This document shows, in pieces, positions 49,566 through 60,100 of a stretch of 64,000 bases of DNA. The notes beneath the pieces were generated by a model. It ran no database searches and was not told the DNA's origin. It was given only the letters and a program-made list of their open reading frames with translations. The translations under genes were made by a program, and so were the position numbers. The stretch covers positions 248,001 through 312,000 of the forward strand of contig JABRWF010000003.1 of assembly GCA_018343915.1 (NCBI GenBank). Reading direction: 5' to 3'. The DNA comes from Agroathelia rolfsii. Its lineage: Eukaryota; Basidiomycota; Agaricomycetes; Amylocorticiales; Amylocorticiaceae. Position 1 is the first letter of the stretch. Each line of letters begins with the position of its first letter.

Positions 49566-51264
49566 TGATGGGTCCTGTATCCATATCTATTTTCCTTCTC
49601 TCTCTCCTCTTCTACGGTCCCGCATTTGTTTTTACCTTTTTCTATAGTATCATTAGCATCATCACTCTCTGATGCTCATGAACTATGCATGCATTTCAAT
49701 CTTGCTGTTCCTCACCATCACTTCTCTTTTCTGGTTTGTGAGCCGTCAGCGTACCTGTGTGCTCGTTTACGGAGCAGTGATTTTTTTCACCGGCTTGAAG
49801 ATGACGACGACGACGATGATGATGATGGTGATGACTCCAACTTTACAATATATACTATGCTGGATGTATTTATAAGGGCAATTACTAGGGGTATAATCAA
49901 GGGTGTACTACGGATTGGAGAAACTGTCATGTGTTGTGAAGGCAACTTTTTTGAAGATGAAACCGGTAGTTTCCGTCAGTTGCGAATGTCGGAGGCGGGG
50001 CTGTGTTTGCGGACATTTTTGAAGCCATATGGCTACAGCAGCCACTAGCACCACCGGCAAAGATGATGCCTATGTGATCTCACTTGCTGCAACTCCCATC
50101 CTTGCTTAGGTACTGGCAAGTCTGAGTGCATATTCGAGACTTGGGCCTAGGTAAAACATTACCTGCTTCGAAACGATCTTCCAAGCCTTTGACTACGGTA
50201 CAACCATCAAAGCATCCTGGAAACTAGGCGCTGAAGTCGATAAACGACCTCAAGGTTGCTACTGCATGGAGTGCACATCCATCATCGTCATCATCCTCAT
50301 CTTCGACACCATCACCGACACCATCAACGCCTCTTGATGCAACGTCCACTTAAACAGTTTATGCTTCTCTCGGTGTTTGATAGAATGCGTTTGTTAGCAT
50401 CCCACTCCCAGTGGCGTTGTGCTGACACGCATATGCTATTTGCTCACTCTGCATGATACATTTTTTTGGACCGTTTGACTATTTCTCCGTGCCGTCGAAT
50501 GGCCGAAGAGTAATTCTGATTTCTCCATATTGTGTTATTCTTCGTTCTGCGCAGCCCGGGAGTCTCAACTAATGTGCCCTATACGGTAATCACATTTAAA
50601 TTACAGACCACCTCGTCATTGACCTATGTTTGACCATGGACGCCAGGCAAAGTACCCCTGATATTATTCCCGATGCCGCCAATTGATTAGGACTTGAAAT
50701 GCTCTCTTGATTATGTCTATCTTTGAGACGTTATGACACCACCATGATCGCTCCTTCCATTTAGTATATTGTGTGGGCTTGTGTATGCACAACAGATCGT
50801 CTCTCGGTTACGTCCTCGTAATCACAGTCACAAGCAGTGCCCCCCGGATCAGATTGAATCCATGTCGCATTGATCCCCCTTCCTCCTGGTACGCATCCAT
50901 GCATGCGTGAGGTGCACAGAATGATGCGGATGATGGAAGGGGATGAGATGGCAGTGGTATCCCCGCTTGATCAGCTTGGAGTCTTCCATGCCGTGGGTGG
51001 CTCGATAGGGATGGTAAGAAGTATAAAAGCTCGTGGTTCAACCGAGCTATGATTCTCCAGCAGTGCTCACTTCCACACACCAACACATCCTCTTTTCTCT
51101 TCGAGGCACCGGTTGCCCTCCTCACGTTTTCTTTCTTTCGTTCGCTCTTCGTTTTTTTTTCGACTCGCTCTTCTTTTCATCGACGATCATCCCGAGACTC
51201 ATACACACTCTCCTTCTTGATTAATTCTCTTTAACTTTCATCCTCTTAATCACCTAAGTTCAAA
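49566..51264. other. Intergenic region before the repeat-peptide gene
   Basis: 1.7 kb with short GAT/CAT repeats (49800-49830, 50270-50330) and no gene I can support. Its right end is the promoter of the repeat gene. Confidence 0.5.
51022..51029 (+). promoter_or_regulatory. TATA box of the repeat-peptide gene
   Basis: TATAAAAG lies 236-243 bp before the ATG, followed by a pyrimidine-rich leader (51120-51240). This layout is usual for strongly expressed fungal genes; the leader length is inferred. Confidence 0.5.
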
Positions 51265-53367
51265 ATGGTTGCCTCCTCCAAGATCGTTTTTGCTGCCGCC
51301 GTCGTTGCTGCTTCCACCCCTGCTTTCGCAGCTCCGTGAGTATACCCCCTATCATTCTGAATGGAGATTCCATGAGGCTGACTATATGCACATATACAAT
51401 AGCATTGATGCTCGCGCCTCTTCTTCTGGCAAGAGCTCTTCTTCTAGCACTGGTTCTTCGATTGCCAGTGGTGTCCTGGGTAGTGCCGTCTCTGGTGCTG
51501 CCAACTCGAGTAAGTTATACAATTATACCTTAAATATGATAGTTTTGACATTGATCTGATTTTTATTTAACAGTCGTTACCGAAGGCATTGAGGGCATTG
51601 AGAGCCTCTTCCACCGTGAGCTTGAGGCCCGCGCCTCCTCCTCTGGTAAGAGCTCTTCCTCTAGCACTGGTTCCTCGATTGCCAGCGGCATCCTGGGAAG
51701 CGCTGTTTCTGGTGCTGCTAACTCAAGTAAGTTATACAGCCGTCCTAAATTTGATAGCCTTGACATTAATCTGATCTCACCTTTATCAAATAGTCGTCAC
51801 TGAGGGAATTCAAGGCCTCGAGAGTCTGTTCCGCCGTGAGTTCGAGGCCCGTGCTTCCTCTGGCAAGAGCTCCAGCTCTGGCTCCTCGATTACCAGTGGC
51901 GTCCTCGGCAGTGCTGCCTCTGGTGCTGCCAACGCTGGTGTTACCCAACTCATCCAAGGCATTGAAAGTCTGTTCCACCGCGAGCTCGAGGCCCGCGGTA
52001 TCGGCAGCGACATTGCCAAGAGTGCTGCTAGTGGCGCTGCCAACGCTGGTGTGACCCAGCTCATCCAAGGCATCGAGAGTCTCTTCCGCCGTGAGGTCGA
52101 GGAGCGCGGTATCGGCAGCGACATCGCCAAGAGCGCAGCTAGCGGTGCTGCTAACGCGGGTGTGACGCAGCTCATCCAGGGCATCGAGAGCCTACTCCGT
52201 CGCGACCTCGAGACTCGTGGCGTTGGCAGCGACATCGCCAAGAGTGCCGCCAGTGGTGCTGCCAACGCTGGTGTGACCCAGCTCATCCAGGGCATCGAGA
52301 GCCTCTTCCGCCGTGAGGTCGACGAGCGCGGCATTGGCGGCGACATTGCCAAGAGCGCAGCGAGTGGCGCCGCCAACGCTGGTGTGACCCAACTCATCCA
52401 GGGTATCGAGAGCCTCTTCCGTCGCGAATTGTCCTCCATCCCCGAGGGACACGGTCCCGAGATCAGCACCGGCCTGACCCCGGCGCAGATTGCGAGCCTC
52501 CTCAACACCTTCCAGAACCGTGGTATTGGCGGTGACATCGCCAAGAGCGCCGCCAGTGGTGCCGCCAACGCGGGTGTTACCCAGCTCATCCAAGGCATCG
52601 AGAGCCTCTTCCGTCGCGAGCTCGAGACCCGTGCTTCATCTGGCAAGAGCTCTTCGTCTGGCTCCTCGATCACCAGTGGCATCCTTGGAAGTGCGGCTTC
52701 TGGTGCTGCCAACGCTGGTGTCACTCAGCTCATCCAGGGTATCGAGAGCCTCTTCCGCCGCGAACTCGAGACTCGCGGTATCGGCAGTGACATCGCCAAG
52801 AGTGCTGCTAGTGGCGCTGCCAACGCTGGTGTGACCCAGCTCATCCAAGGCATCGAGGGTCTCTTCCGCCGTGAGGTCGAGGAGCGCGGCATCGGCAGCG
52901 ACATCGCTAAGAGTGCCGCCAGCGGTGCTGCTAACGCGGGTGTGACGCAGCTCATCCAGGGCATCGAGAGCCTGCTCCGTCGCGACCTCGAGACTCGCGG
53001 TATTGGCAGCGACATTGCCAAGAGCGCCGCGAGCGGTGCCGCCAACGCTGGTGTCACTCAACTCATCCAGGGCATCGAAGGCCTCTTCCGTCGTGAGCTC
53101 GAGACCCGTGCTTCGTCTGGCAAGAGCTCTTCGTCTGGCTCCTCGATCACCAGTGGCATCCTTGGAAGTGCAGCTTCTGGTGCTGCCAACGCCGGTGTCA
53201 CTCAACTTATCCAGGGCATCGAGAGCCTGTTCCGCCGTGAGCTTGAGACGCGCGGCATCGGCAGCGACATCGCCAAGAGCGCAGCAAGCGGTGCCGCCAA
53301 TGCTGGTGTGACGCAGCTCATCCAGGGCATTGAGGGCCTCTTCAGGAGGGATGTGGATTTGGATTAA
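51265..53367 (+). CDS. Secreted tandem-repeat precursor, putative Kex2-processed peptides
   Basis: A 634-residue protein from exons 51265-51335, 51403-51509, 51574-51726 and 51794-53367. MVASSKIVFAAAVVAASTPA is a signal peptide with cleavage near AFAAP. All the rest is 14 tandem units. Most are 37 residues: an acidic spacer ending in Arg (ELETR, EVEER, DLETR), then GIGSDIAKSAASGAANAG, then VTQLIQGIESLF, then Arg-Arg. Five units replace the GIGSD part by an ASSGKSSSS segment (48 residues when complete). Twelve units end in Arg-Arg and two in His-Arg. No transmembrane, cysteine or enzyme motif exists. The layout fits fungal Kex2-processed repeat precursors such as Ustilago Rep1 or Candida Ece1, but the peptide itself matches nothing I know. 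Predicted products are weakly charged and amphipathic at the C-terminal half. A structural cell-wall role without cleavage is the alternative. Confidence 0.85.
51403..53352 (+). repeat. 14-unit coding tandem repeat (111- and 144-bp units)
   Basis: Unit ends, taken at the dibasic codons, are at 51612 (His-Arg), 51832, 51976 (His-Arg), 52087, 52198, 52309, 52420, 52612, 52756, 52867, 52978, 53089, 53233 and 53344. Spacings are 111 bp for GIGSD units and 144 bp for ASSGKSS units; one unit is 192 bp because of an insert. Units 3-6, 9-12 and 13-14 repeat the same order of types, so there is a higher-order repeat of four units. Confidence 0.92.
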
Positions 53368-57172: not shown

Positions 57173-60100
57173 ATGTCTCCTGCCCCTACTGGGGAGAAGC
57201 AATTTCACATGCAAGAGACTGAATTGGACGACGAGCAACTTACGGCCACCTCTACTAGTAGATCTTCACGAAGTTATGTATCCAATCTTGAGAATGCTGC
57301 AAGGTGATGAGGGCCAACATGTATAAGAGGGAAACATCGGCTTAATATGACATATTACATTCATCACCAGTAATACTCAGGCCAACAACCAGATCAGTTA
57401 GCAAATAATACCGTAATTCTCAGATCCTCTCATAACTTAGAATCCCCGGTTATCAGACTATACTCAATACGAAGCTAATGGTAAGCTTATCACACCATAC
57501 CCTATATCAGCTCTTTCACTGAAGTTATCACCGGCTTCTTTAGGCAAGGGTCTTGCATCAGTTGCTCACATCACTCAAGATGGTCGCATAACTGTCTCCA
57601 TTAATTTAAGGAGACATCTTCCTGATCTCCCAACTGCGTATACTCCCGAAGTTGGAGAGTCAGATGTCGATGTGAATCAATGGGCCGAATGTCCCGGTAT
57701 GAATATTGTGATCATGATTATTGGAAGTCGAGGTAACCTTGCGCAATGGAAATCTCATCCGCCGAAAAAGCTTATCCCTTTTCACTTTAGGCGACGTACA
57801 ACCATACCTAGCTCTCGCACGGAGGCTCATCAAAGATGGCCACCGTGTCCGCATTGCTACTCATGAGACATTCCGATCGTTCGTTCGTACAACCGGCGTT
57901 GAGTTCTTCAGCATCGGCGGAAATCCTCAAGATCTGATGAGCTACATGGTTCGGAGTGAGTATAATTCTTATATTTTTCGCCTCGATTTTACAACGCTCC
58001 CAGATCCGGGCCTCATTCCTGGAGTTGAATCATTACTTAATGGCGATATAACCAAGAAACGTAAAATGCTTTCGGAGGTCAGCACTAATTATAGTCCAGT
58101 GGGATATGAACTCACCATTTCATTCTCTCAAGATGATTGACGGTTGTTGGAAAGCATGTCATCAACCGGACGATGAGTCCGGTCGAGCTTTTGCAGCTGA
58201 TGCTATTATATCCAATCCTCCTGCGTTTGCACATGTTCATTGTGCCGAAGCTTTAGGAATTCCTCTATTGCTTTCGTTTAGTAAGTTCATTCATGCGGAT
58301 CGACCTATCTTCTAAAGTATTTCCTCTTCTTTGCAGCCATGCCTTGGTGAGTCATTGTTACTCTGGTTGGTCGATTGCGTTCTTACAATTTTGCTATCAG
58401 GACGCCAACAACAAGTTTTGTACACCCACTCGTGAACATAGTTCAGTCCAACGCTGGACGTGGTCTCACAAATTATCTTAGTTATGCTCTTGCCGACGTG
58501 CTCACTTGGCAAGGGTAAGTTTATCTATAACTATTTTTTGATAGGCTGCAATTATCAATACCTCTATCAGAATCGGGGACATCATTAACCAATTTCGTGT
58601 CAAGACTCTGGGTTTGGCTCCTCTTAACATGCTATCTGGGCCTAGCATAGTCGACCGCTTGAAGATTCCTTGGACATATTGTATGAGCTCTAATCTTGTC
58701 CCGAAGCCTGATGACTGGAAGAGCTACATAGGTAAATTTCGTTCCGCTCAAGCCGTATTCAAATACTCAACAATAGACGATCGCCAGATATTGCGGGATT
58801 TTACTTTTTAGAGTTGGCGACGGATTATAGCCCCTCTGAAGATCTTGTCCGGTTTTTAGCTGCTGGACCTCCCCCTCTTTATATTGGGTATGTCCAGCTA
58901 TTCATCTTCAGACCACCAAAAATATTTATATTTAACGTTCCTCGATTCAGATTCGGATCTGTAGTAGTCAACGATCCAAGGAAAATGACCGAAACCATCT
59001 TTAATGCGACACGATCCGCAGGCACTCGTGTGTTGCTCTCGTCTGGATGGGGTGGACTTGGTGAAATGAACGTACCTGAACATGTATTCATCGTGAAGGA
59101 TGTACCACATGATTGGCTATTCGACCATGTATCGGCTGTTGTGCATCACGGGGGAGCCGGGACCACTGCAATAGGACTAAAGAAAGGAAAACCGACTGTG
59201 GTCGTTCCTTTCTTTGGAGACCAGCTGTTTTGGGGTATGTCACAAAGCACATCTATTATTTCTCAGATGATTGTCTTAACGAGGATTGATAGGTAACATG
59301 ATCTACAAAGCTGGCGCGGGTCCGAAACCAATCCCACAAAATGAACTTGACGTACAAAACCTGACGGACGCGATCAGATTTTCTCTTAGTCCTCCTGTGA
59401 AAGTCGCAGCCGAAAGATTGGCTCATCAAATCGAGAATGAGGTGCGTGTGTACGTACTTGCAACCCTGCACTATCCAGGATCATCGTGCTTTTCATGCTT
59501 TGTTTTTCTGACATAAAGGGTTTTATTTCTCTATTAGAACGGAGTTGAACGAGGTGTAGAATCATTCTATCAGCATTTACCGCTACTGAACATGCGCTGT
59601 GACTTGGATTCCACTCAACTGGCGGTCTGGTGGTCGACAGAATATGTGGGAGCTTTTAACTACTTCCCCTAGGAAGAAGCTACTAATGACGCTCGAAAAT
59701 TAACAGTGCTTGAAAATGAGCACATTTGCAGCTCAAGTGCTGGCTGACGCTCAGAAGCTAGAACTCAAGAATTTAGACATTCACAGTCTGTCCCATTTCC
59801 TCTTTCTTTTTTGTGCATATTGTAACCTTCATAATCAACACAGGACCCAGAGAATACGAATCTAACAAAAAGGTATTAGATCCAGTCACGGGTGGAGTTG
59901 CGGCGATATTCTGGACTGTGACGCATTGGTATGGTGGTATTGCACAAATATTCTAGTACGCCAAATCATCTTGGAATTGGAGTACATGCTGCTCAGCAAC
60001 TATTTGTGCAGCTCGCCCGTGTCTGGTATTGTAAACACCACTGTTGCTATTCCTAAAGGTAGGCATAATCAGACACCTGATGTTTCATTCCATGTGTACC

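Follow-up and report, generated by a model that had tools for sequence, protein, structure and literature searches.

How a fungal protein built of tandem repeats is processed, and what its pieces do, is the question raised by the gene at 51265..53367 in a 64-kb stretch of Agroathelia rolfsii DNA (the window). The original prediction, made from the letters of this stretch, took the gene for an undescribed peptide system, in which a signal peptide is followed by 14 units with 12 Arg-Arg and two His-Arg ends and no other domain. The layout is borne out by the spliced 634-residue product, in which MVASSKIVFAAAVVAASTPAFAAP is followed by 14 repeat units, DVDLD and the stop codon. The product is probably a Kex2-processed repeat protein (KEP), in which kexin would cut at two sites per unit to release linear helical peptides, perhaps with a role at a surface. 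The N-terminus is hydrophobic and runs into AFA-AP (on hydropathy only), and beyond residue 30 the highest 19-residue Kyte-Doolittle mean is 1.28 (the customary transmembrane threshold is 1.6), which indicates no transmembrane segment by hydropathy. The introns are 64-67 bases long, and the recurrence of intron 1 and of the phase-1 unit introns in two paralogues lends support to the splice model. The absence of any other domain needs a qualification: one Pfam model, FLYWCH_u, does exceed its cut-off (68 vs 36 bits), with no individual stretch passing, and was read as an artefact of repetition or composition.

The units, which were also called as tandem repeats by Tandem Repeats Finder, end in LFRR (ten), LLRR (two) or HR (units 1 and 3). 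Nine contain a 30-residue core of the form G[IV]G[SG]DIAKSAASGAANAGVTQLIQGIE[SG]L[FL] (GIG cores), and the GIGSDIAKSAASG start that had been claimed for the peptide is present, exactly or as a one-residue variant, in nine of the 14; the five others (1, 2, 3, 9 and 13) have a longer core of 41-44 residues, in which the first half is rich in Ser and the second is identical or similar to that of the GIG cores. Every core is preceded by a single Arg (14/14). In 12 units this Arg closes an acidic spacer of five residues (ELEAR, EFEAR, EVEER, EVDER, DLETR or ELETR), IDAR stands before the first core, and a 32-residue spacer ending in FQNR before the eighth, so that the acidic spacer originally described holds for the Arg but is far longer in unit 8. 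Between the nine GIG cores, taken with their RR, the residue is invariant at 28/32 positions and silent differences are many: pooled over 36 pairs, synonymous divergence (dS) is 0.80 and nonsynonymous divergence (dN) 0.027, a dN/dS of about 0.03, and the 12 RR pairs use five codon combinations (CGC-CGT, CGT-CGC, CGC-CGC, CGT-CGT and AGG-AGG). This contrast rules out a chance origin of the repeat. The core, to judge from these substitutions, is under strong purifying selection that keeps the amino acids and not the DNA.

Proteins of this kind are already on record. The class was defined in 2019 (PMC6339444); a survey of 1461 strains followed in 2020 (PMC7329392), and in 2022 peptidomics demonstrated KEPs in mushrooms, in a study that called their functions largely unknown (PMC9769878). 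The precursor is like them in its signal-peptide-like start, its many near-identical repeats between dibasic sites, and its lack of a domain and, by hydropathy, of a transmembrane segment; it has, as the definition of a KEP requires, three or more repeats of 8-100 residues flanked by KR, RR, KK or RK. As a kind, therefore, the system is not undescribed (PMC6339444, PMC7329392, PMC9769878), and a Kex2-type polyprotein precursor is well supported by architecture and conservation. It differs from KEPs in having two candidate sites per unit and paralogues largely without dibasic sites, and no C. cinerea, Lentinula or Pleurotus peptide among those of the 2022 study that were compared resembles the core by eye (PMC9769878). 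The peptide family itself seems new: it was not found named in the literature covered, to which the supplementary KEP lists of the surveys do not belong, so that it may have been listed before, and a literature search gave no paper combining Clavulina, Kex2 and repeat.

A search of fungal proteins for the unit, which had been proposed as a check, finds homologues in Cantharellales, Gomphales, Russulales and, distantly, Agaricales. Three protein searches, each scoring the approximately 8000 candidates that shared most words, so that family counts are lower bounds, gave 5, 14 and 9 proteins, at least 21 of them distinct. They come from Ramaria rubella (Gomphales; P0001), Clavulina sp. PMI_390 (Cantharellales; P0002-P0007 and P0009-P0011), the Russulales Bondarzewia mesenterica (P0015) and Artomyces pyxidatus (P0018), and three Mycena species (P0019-P0021; Agaricales, the order being looked up for M. 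polygramma), which match weakly (E 2e-6 to 5e-5). A close relative, with the C-terminal end GIGSDIAKSAASGAANAGVTQIIQGLESLFRRDVDLD, is P0008 of a JGI source. The family thus spans Agaricomycetes and recurs in at least four orders. The hypothetical proteins of Ramaria, Clavulina, Bondarzewia, Artomyces and Mycena resemble the precursor in core ends that often read IESLF[RK]R, in [ED]LEAR/ELETR-type stretches before the cores and, mostly, in an [DE]LD C-terminus. Their repeats, however, are fewer or more diverse, the Clavulina proteins have an extra second repeat of about 40 residues, and the Mycena copies are distant and hardly tandem. The [DE]LD C-terminus, possibly a sorting signal, is carried by 16/24 family records (the precursor, at 53350-53364, its paralogues L009 and L010, P0001, P0003-P0008, P0014, P0015 and P0018-P0021), the remaining eight including fragments and odd ends. 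A stretch LTPAQIASLL lies in the spacer of unit 8 (52426-52521), and similar LxPxxIxxLL stretches are seen in P0002 and P0008, with looser versions in two Mycena proteins; the spacer stretch is perhaps a second peptide.

In the A. rolfsii genome (37.7 Mb, 8 contigs), a search in which the best candidates only were scored gave two further family genes, paralogues A and B, whose gene models were built on their DNA; with P0001 and P0008 as queries no additional locus appeared among the best candidates scored. Common to all three genes are the signal-peptide-like segment, an intron after codon 23, early units with phase-1 introns, and the DVDLD tail. Divergence between the two paralogues is dS = 0.34 and dN = 0.07.

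What the family keeps at its putative cleavage sites can be read from 103 core ends in 18 proteins (P0016-P0021 being outside the site tables), that is, 107 regular-expression matches less four non-core ends (TN in paralogue A, IQ and RS in P0002, and EK in P0008). Of these, 100 have Arg at the scissile position P1, 76 have Lys or Arg at P2, and 82 have Asp or Glu at P1′. P1 Arg, basic P2 and acidic P1′ are found in 14/14, 12/14 and 14/14 core ends of the precursor and in 65/67, 57/67 (RR or KR) and 46/67 of those outside the genome, and in 21/22, 7/22 and 22/22 of those in the paralogues. Ends with a non-basic P2 read GR, SR, QR, PR or HR and occur mainly in the paralogues, one of whose ends is PP. 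Ten of the 67 outside ends are without a basic P2, and an RR follows one residue later in one of these (P0008), with RR or SRR further on in two (P0015). According to the original prediction, loss of Arg-Arg with conservation of the rest would speak against processing; such a loss is seen at P2 in the paralogues, but neither at P1 (100/103) nor outside the genome.

The loss of the basic P2 from 15/22 paralogue core ends, with the rest of the unit kept, would suit a secreted helical-repeat protein of the wall or matrix that is never cleaved and in which the Arg pairs are incidental. This alternative is improbable in view of the near-constant P1 Arg and the RR or KR at 57/67 ends elsewhere. Moreover, all seven Ramaria core ends have KR, and a change from RR to KR would be expected if it is the protease site that is conserved. 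The stretches between cores also vary widely in length and sequence (5-32 residues in the precursor, longer in some P0008 and Clavulina units) whereas the cores stay alike, which counts for a processed precursor. Finally, no compact fold is predicted: AlphaFold2, run on exon 4 with 15 relatives, gave a series of separate helices lacking any overall fold (mean predicted local distance difference test score, pLDDT, 53.7; predicted template modelling score, pTM, 0.24), which may suit a polyprotein slightly better than a folded protein. As for known structures, a PDB sequence search with exon 4 gave no match up to E = 1.

The precursor contains 40 Arg, 12 of which are the P2 residues of RR pairs; the 28 others are the 14 at core ends and the 14 before cores, and P4 is Leu, Ile, Val or Phe for every one of these candidate scissile residues. 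The paralogues also keep the Arg before the core (22/22), always in an aliphatic/Phe-x-x-Arg context, which fits 13/22 of their core ends as well (Leu at P4). Across the 18 proteins, P4 is Leu, Ile, Val, Met or Phe in 76/93 N-side and 94/103 C-side sites compared with 26% of all residues, an enrichment that is descriptive, as the sites are related by descent. The N-side table takes the nearest upstream Arg and thus includes some that are not true core starts; six core ends (four in P0001, one each in P0002 and P0013) have no upstream Arg in the span, and 93 of the 97 others have full P4-P1. An expanded Kex2 motif LxxR has been described (PMC8528282, PMC6258133), to which the single-Arg sites of the precursor are close. 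Kex2 is reported to prefer an aliphatic P4 and to accept a variable P2, with Thr and Glu among five alternatives to Lys (PMC8528282), and nine of the 14 P2 residues before precursor cores are Thr or Glu. An acidic P1′ has likewise been reported for Kex2 cleavage sites (PMC2515848), and several C. cinerea KEP products expressed in Pichia appeared to end after a single Arg (PMC9769878). We read the conserved processing code as this wider kexin motif, aliphatic-x-x-Arg with Phe counted in, and a single kexin-type protease could release both the 30-44 residue cores and the short acidic linkers. The second trimming step originally suggested from the single Arg, which is indeed constant, may consequently be unneeded, all 14 lying in an aliphatic/Phe-x-x-Arg context near the LxxR of Kex2.

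Cleavage at RR alone would instead leave peptides of 37 or 48 residues that keep the acidic spacer, with the single Arg left intact or, as originally suggested, cleaved afterwards by a different enzyme. In favour of this, RR is the classical site, double units would simply remain at the two HR ends, the pipelines of Le Marquer and Umemura cut dibasic sites only (PMC6339444, PMC7329392), and a basic P2 appears in PMC6258133 and in the matrix rows of PMC2515848. With RR/KR cutting the precursor gives 13 pieces (103, 85, 37, 37, 37, 64, 48, 37, 37, 37, 48, 37 and 5 residues), the first exceeding 100 residues because unit 1 ends in HR. Paralogue A, however, is left with five (93, 96, 47, 68 and 154) and paralogue B with four (137, 95, 47 and 266), where the aliphatic/Phe-x-x-Arg rule gives 29, 17 and 19 pieces for the precursor, A and B. 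Since the Arg before the core is also as constant as that at the unit end in the precursor and is kept throughout the paralogues, dibasic-only cutting is rather unlikely. Under RR/KR cutting, as distinct from the published pipelines, paralogues A and B lack the three or more repeats between dibasic sites by which a KEP is recognized. They amount to a natural experiment in which the dibasic residue is mostly lost (7/22) while the scissile Arg (21/22) and often the P4 Leu (13/22) are kept. With such a pattern, kexin cleavage at single basic residues in basidiomycetes can be tested directly, and the pattern also suggests that surveys restricted to dibasic sites miss some of these precursors; two aliphatic-x-x-Arg sites in each unit, together with the dibasic loss in the paralogues, would, if true, set the family apart within KEPs.

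In the mechanism proposed here, the signal peptide would take the precursor into the secretory pathway, where a Golgi kexin would cut after the Arg at the C-terminal end of each core (LF[RH]R or LLRR before Glu or Asp) and also after the Arg before each core (L/V/F/I-x-x-Arg before Gly or Ala). Two candidate enzymes are present in the genome, as subtilase and P-domain matches occur together at two kexin-like loci (C7:497089-498328 and C6:570455-571703). Cutting on both sides would yield 14 peptides, linear and helical and 30-44 residues long (nine GIG, five Ser-rich), along with acidic linkers and the DVDLD tail; one expected product is GIGSDIAKSAASGAANAGVTQLIQGIESLF with or without its C-terminal Arg, and a Kex1-type carboxypeptidase may then trim the basic C-terminal ends. 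Outside the cell, the mature peptides would most likely act as small helices, near-neutral in charge and in part amphipathic, at a surface or interface such as the cell wall, the air-water boundary or the membrane of a competitor.

For the function, a linear extracellular peptide acting at a surface is favoured, as a guess that may well prove wrong. Eight family cores have a net charge of -2 to +1 and contain 41-61% Gly, Ala and Ser, and the helical moment of the last 18 residues is above that of shuffled sequences in 6/8 (p 0.011-0.042). Because the charge is near neutral and the copies are numerous and alike, a surface or interface role is preferred to a lytic one. Among known systems, Rep1 of Ustilago maydis, which acts at the hyphal surface, has the same plan, with Kex2 sites between its twelve amphipathic repeats, each 34-55 residues long (PMC4617103, PMC2515848); coat peptides of this sort, no hydrophobins since the precursor has no Cys, are the preferred role, held tentatively. 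Rep1 differs, however, in its 228-residue last piece, as opposed to a 5-residue tail, and in forming amyloid-like fibrils where the precursor is predicted to be helical (PMC4617103). No sequence relation to Rep1 was found, general homologue searches having no smut-fungus protein among their named matches and no direct comparison with Rep1 having been made. A membrane-lytic precursor like Candida Ece1, a Kex2-cut polyprotein that yields helical peptides of about 30 residues (PMC12153327), has a similar layout and core length, and helical cores with an amphipathic, hydrophobic C-terminal half would fit it. Such a role is nevertheless quite unlikely: Ece1 gives eight peptides from seven KR sites, with one active core among seven others, instead of 14 related cores, its peptide is likened to cationic antimicrobial peptides (PMC12153327) whereas the present cores are near-neutral or acidic, and no Ece1 is among the named matches of the homologue searches. 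In C. cinerea, six kep knockouts were without visible phenotype and the synthetic peptides tested were without antibacterial activity (PMC9769878), so function may appear only in biotic settings.

Several observations weigh against this reading of two-site cutting and amphipathic products. In the paralogues, P2 is basic in 7/22 core ends only, one end is PP without Arg, and P4 is His in 9/22. Gly, the commonest P2 substitute there (7/22), is absent from the listed alternatives, as are Ser, Gln and His. The Kex2 site has been summed up with Lys or Arg at P2 beside LXXR (PMC6258133), and the matrix of PMC2515848, compared outside its Ala, Glu and Lys rows, has zero at P2 for Met, Asn, Pro, Gln, Ser, Thr, Val, Trp and Tyr, but not for Arg. 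Two of the sites before cores, IDAR and VDER, have Asp at P3, reported as unfavourable (PMC8528282). The odds of finding an aliphatic P4 in 14/14 (1e-9, or 8e-6 for eight distinct spacers) treat related spacers as independent. A trade-off in the paralogues, where P2 is basic in 6/9 ends with His at P4 and in 1/13 with Leu (Fisher p 0.007), was dropped as independent evidence, the two classes being two unit types related by descent. Finally, the C-terminal half is not amphipathic by the shuffle test in 2/8 cores, both of paralogue A (p 0.09 and 0.30), and the helical moment of the whole core is above shuffles (p < 0.05) in 0/8, so that the amphipathic character first assigned to the peptide holds for the C-terminal half (6/8 cores) and fails for the whole. 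It is doubtful that every part of the following would hold together: a multi-order Agaricomycetes family whose true code is aliphatic-x-x-Arg, a kexin cutting on both sides of the core, processing of members without dibasic sites, escape of the paralogues from dibasic-only pipelines, helical peptides serving as coat or signal, and an [DE]LD tail that sorts the precursor.

Other classes of fungal peptide were considered. A modified cyclic peptide of the dikaritin or ustiloxin type, among the ribosomally synthesized and post-translationally modified peptides, could draw on the many UstYa matches in the genome (36 rows) and on the UDP-glycosyltransferase fragment downstream of the gene, which could be a tailoring enzyme. 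None of the 36 lies in the window, however, and the nearest on contig C3, at 4.15 Mb compared with 0.30 Mb for the gene, is more than 3.8 Mb away, which makes cyclization unlikely; the precursor contains no Tyr, Trp or Cys, and at 30-44 residues its cores are long for such peptides, so that this class was rejected as highly improbable. A hydrophobin, with its pattern of eight Cys, was rejected for lack of any Cys. A pheromone processed by a Ste13-type enzyme in the manner of alpha-pheromone was also rejected, since the dipeptides XA and XP are absent after the 14 unit ends, which are followed by EL, EF, EV, DL or DV.

Features of the precursor gene, the window and the paralogues (empty cells: nothing given)
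Feature	Position	Strand	Description	Basis
KEP-type precursor gene	51265..53367, including stop codon	+	634 residues; three introns, all GT-AG	
TATA box GTATAAAA	51021..51028	+	core promoter common to two paralogues	
Presumed 5′ leader	51051..51264	+	pyrimidine-rich (71%)	
Exon 1	51265..51335	+	signal-peptide-like MVASSKIVFAAAVVAASTPAFAA and two bases of next codon	hydropathy
Intron 1	51336..51402	+	phase 2, after codon 23; position and phase identical in both paralogues	
IDAR site and unit 1	51403..51617	+	Ser-rich core, end SLFHR; split by intron 2	
Intron 2	51510..51573	+	phase 1, within unit 1	
Spacer ELEAR and unit 2	51618..51837	+	Ser-rich core, end SLFRR; split by intron 3	
Intron 3	51727..51793	+	phase 1, within unit 2; position matches intron 2 in unit 1	
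Spacer EFEAR and unit 3	51838..51981	+	Ser-rich core, end SLFHR	
Units 4-7	51982..52425	+	four times 37 residues: acidic 5-residue spacer with Arg end, 30-residue G[IV]G[SG]D core, RR	
Long acidic spacer of unit 8	52426..52521	+	ELSSIPEGHGPEISTGLTPAQIASLLNTFQNR	
GIG core of unit 8	52522..52617	+	end SLFRR	
Units 9-14	52618..53349	+	9 and 13 Ser-rich; 10, 11, 12 and 14 GIG type; all end in RR	
C-terminal tail	53350..53364	+	DVDLD, after last RR	
UDP-glycosyltransferase fragment	58736-59296		about 5 kb downstream of precursor gene	Pfam
eIF2A			upstream neighbour	Pfam
GH5 C-terminal domain			downstream neighbour	Pfam
WH2 motif			window open reading frame	Pfam
Paralogue A	L009 5037-3190	-	480 residues; six introns	
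Paralogue B	L010 5199-3016	-	567 residues; seven introns	

Ten open reading frames of the window were scanned with Pfam, and four had a match; no biosynthetic cluster was seen around the precursor gene. The TATA box and long pyrimidine-rich leader of the original prediction are present, and an identical TATA box and much of the leader are kept in both paralogues. The G+C content at third codon positions is 0.66 in the precursor gene, compared with 0.40-0.61 in eight other open reading frames of the window, and 0.52 and 0.56 in the paralogues. We infer from such features that the precursor gene may be strongly expressed.

The early units are split at one place by phase-1 introns in all three genes (51403-51793; L009 3903-4814; L010 3861-4988), and the later units are intron-less. 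The shared place and phase make the early exons symmetric one-unit modules, and the pattern suggests exon duplication and then spread of an intron-less unit. Similar further open reading frames flank both paralogues (L009 6682-7392; L010 6825-7460), which may therefore belong to a segment duplicated between contigs C2 and C1. In P0001, the models Voltage_CLC (with one passing stretch) and UvsW-1 (with none) exceed the Pfam cut-off and were read as artefacts of repetition or composition. Finally, pairs of UstYa matches with identical scores lie in mirrored order at C2:1966834-1969023 (-) and C2:1992456-1994645 (+), which suggests an inverted duplication of a UstYa gene pair.

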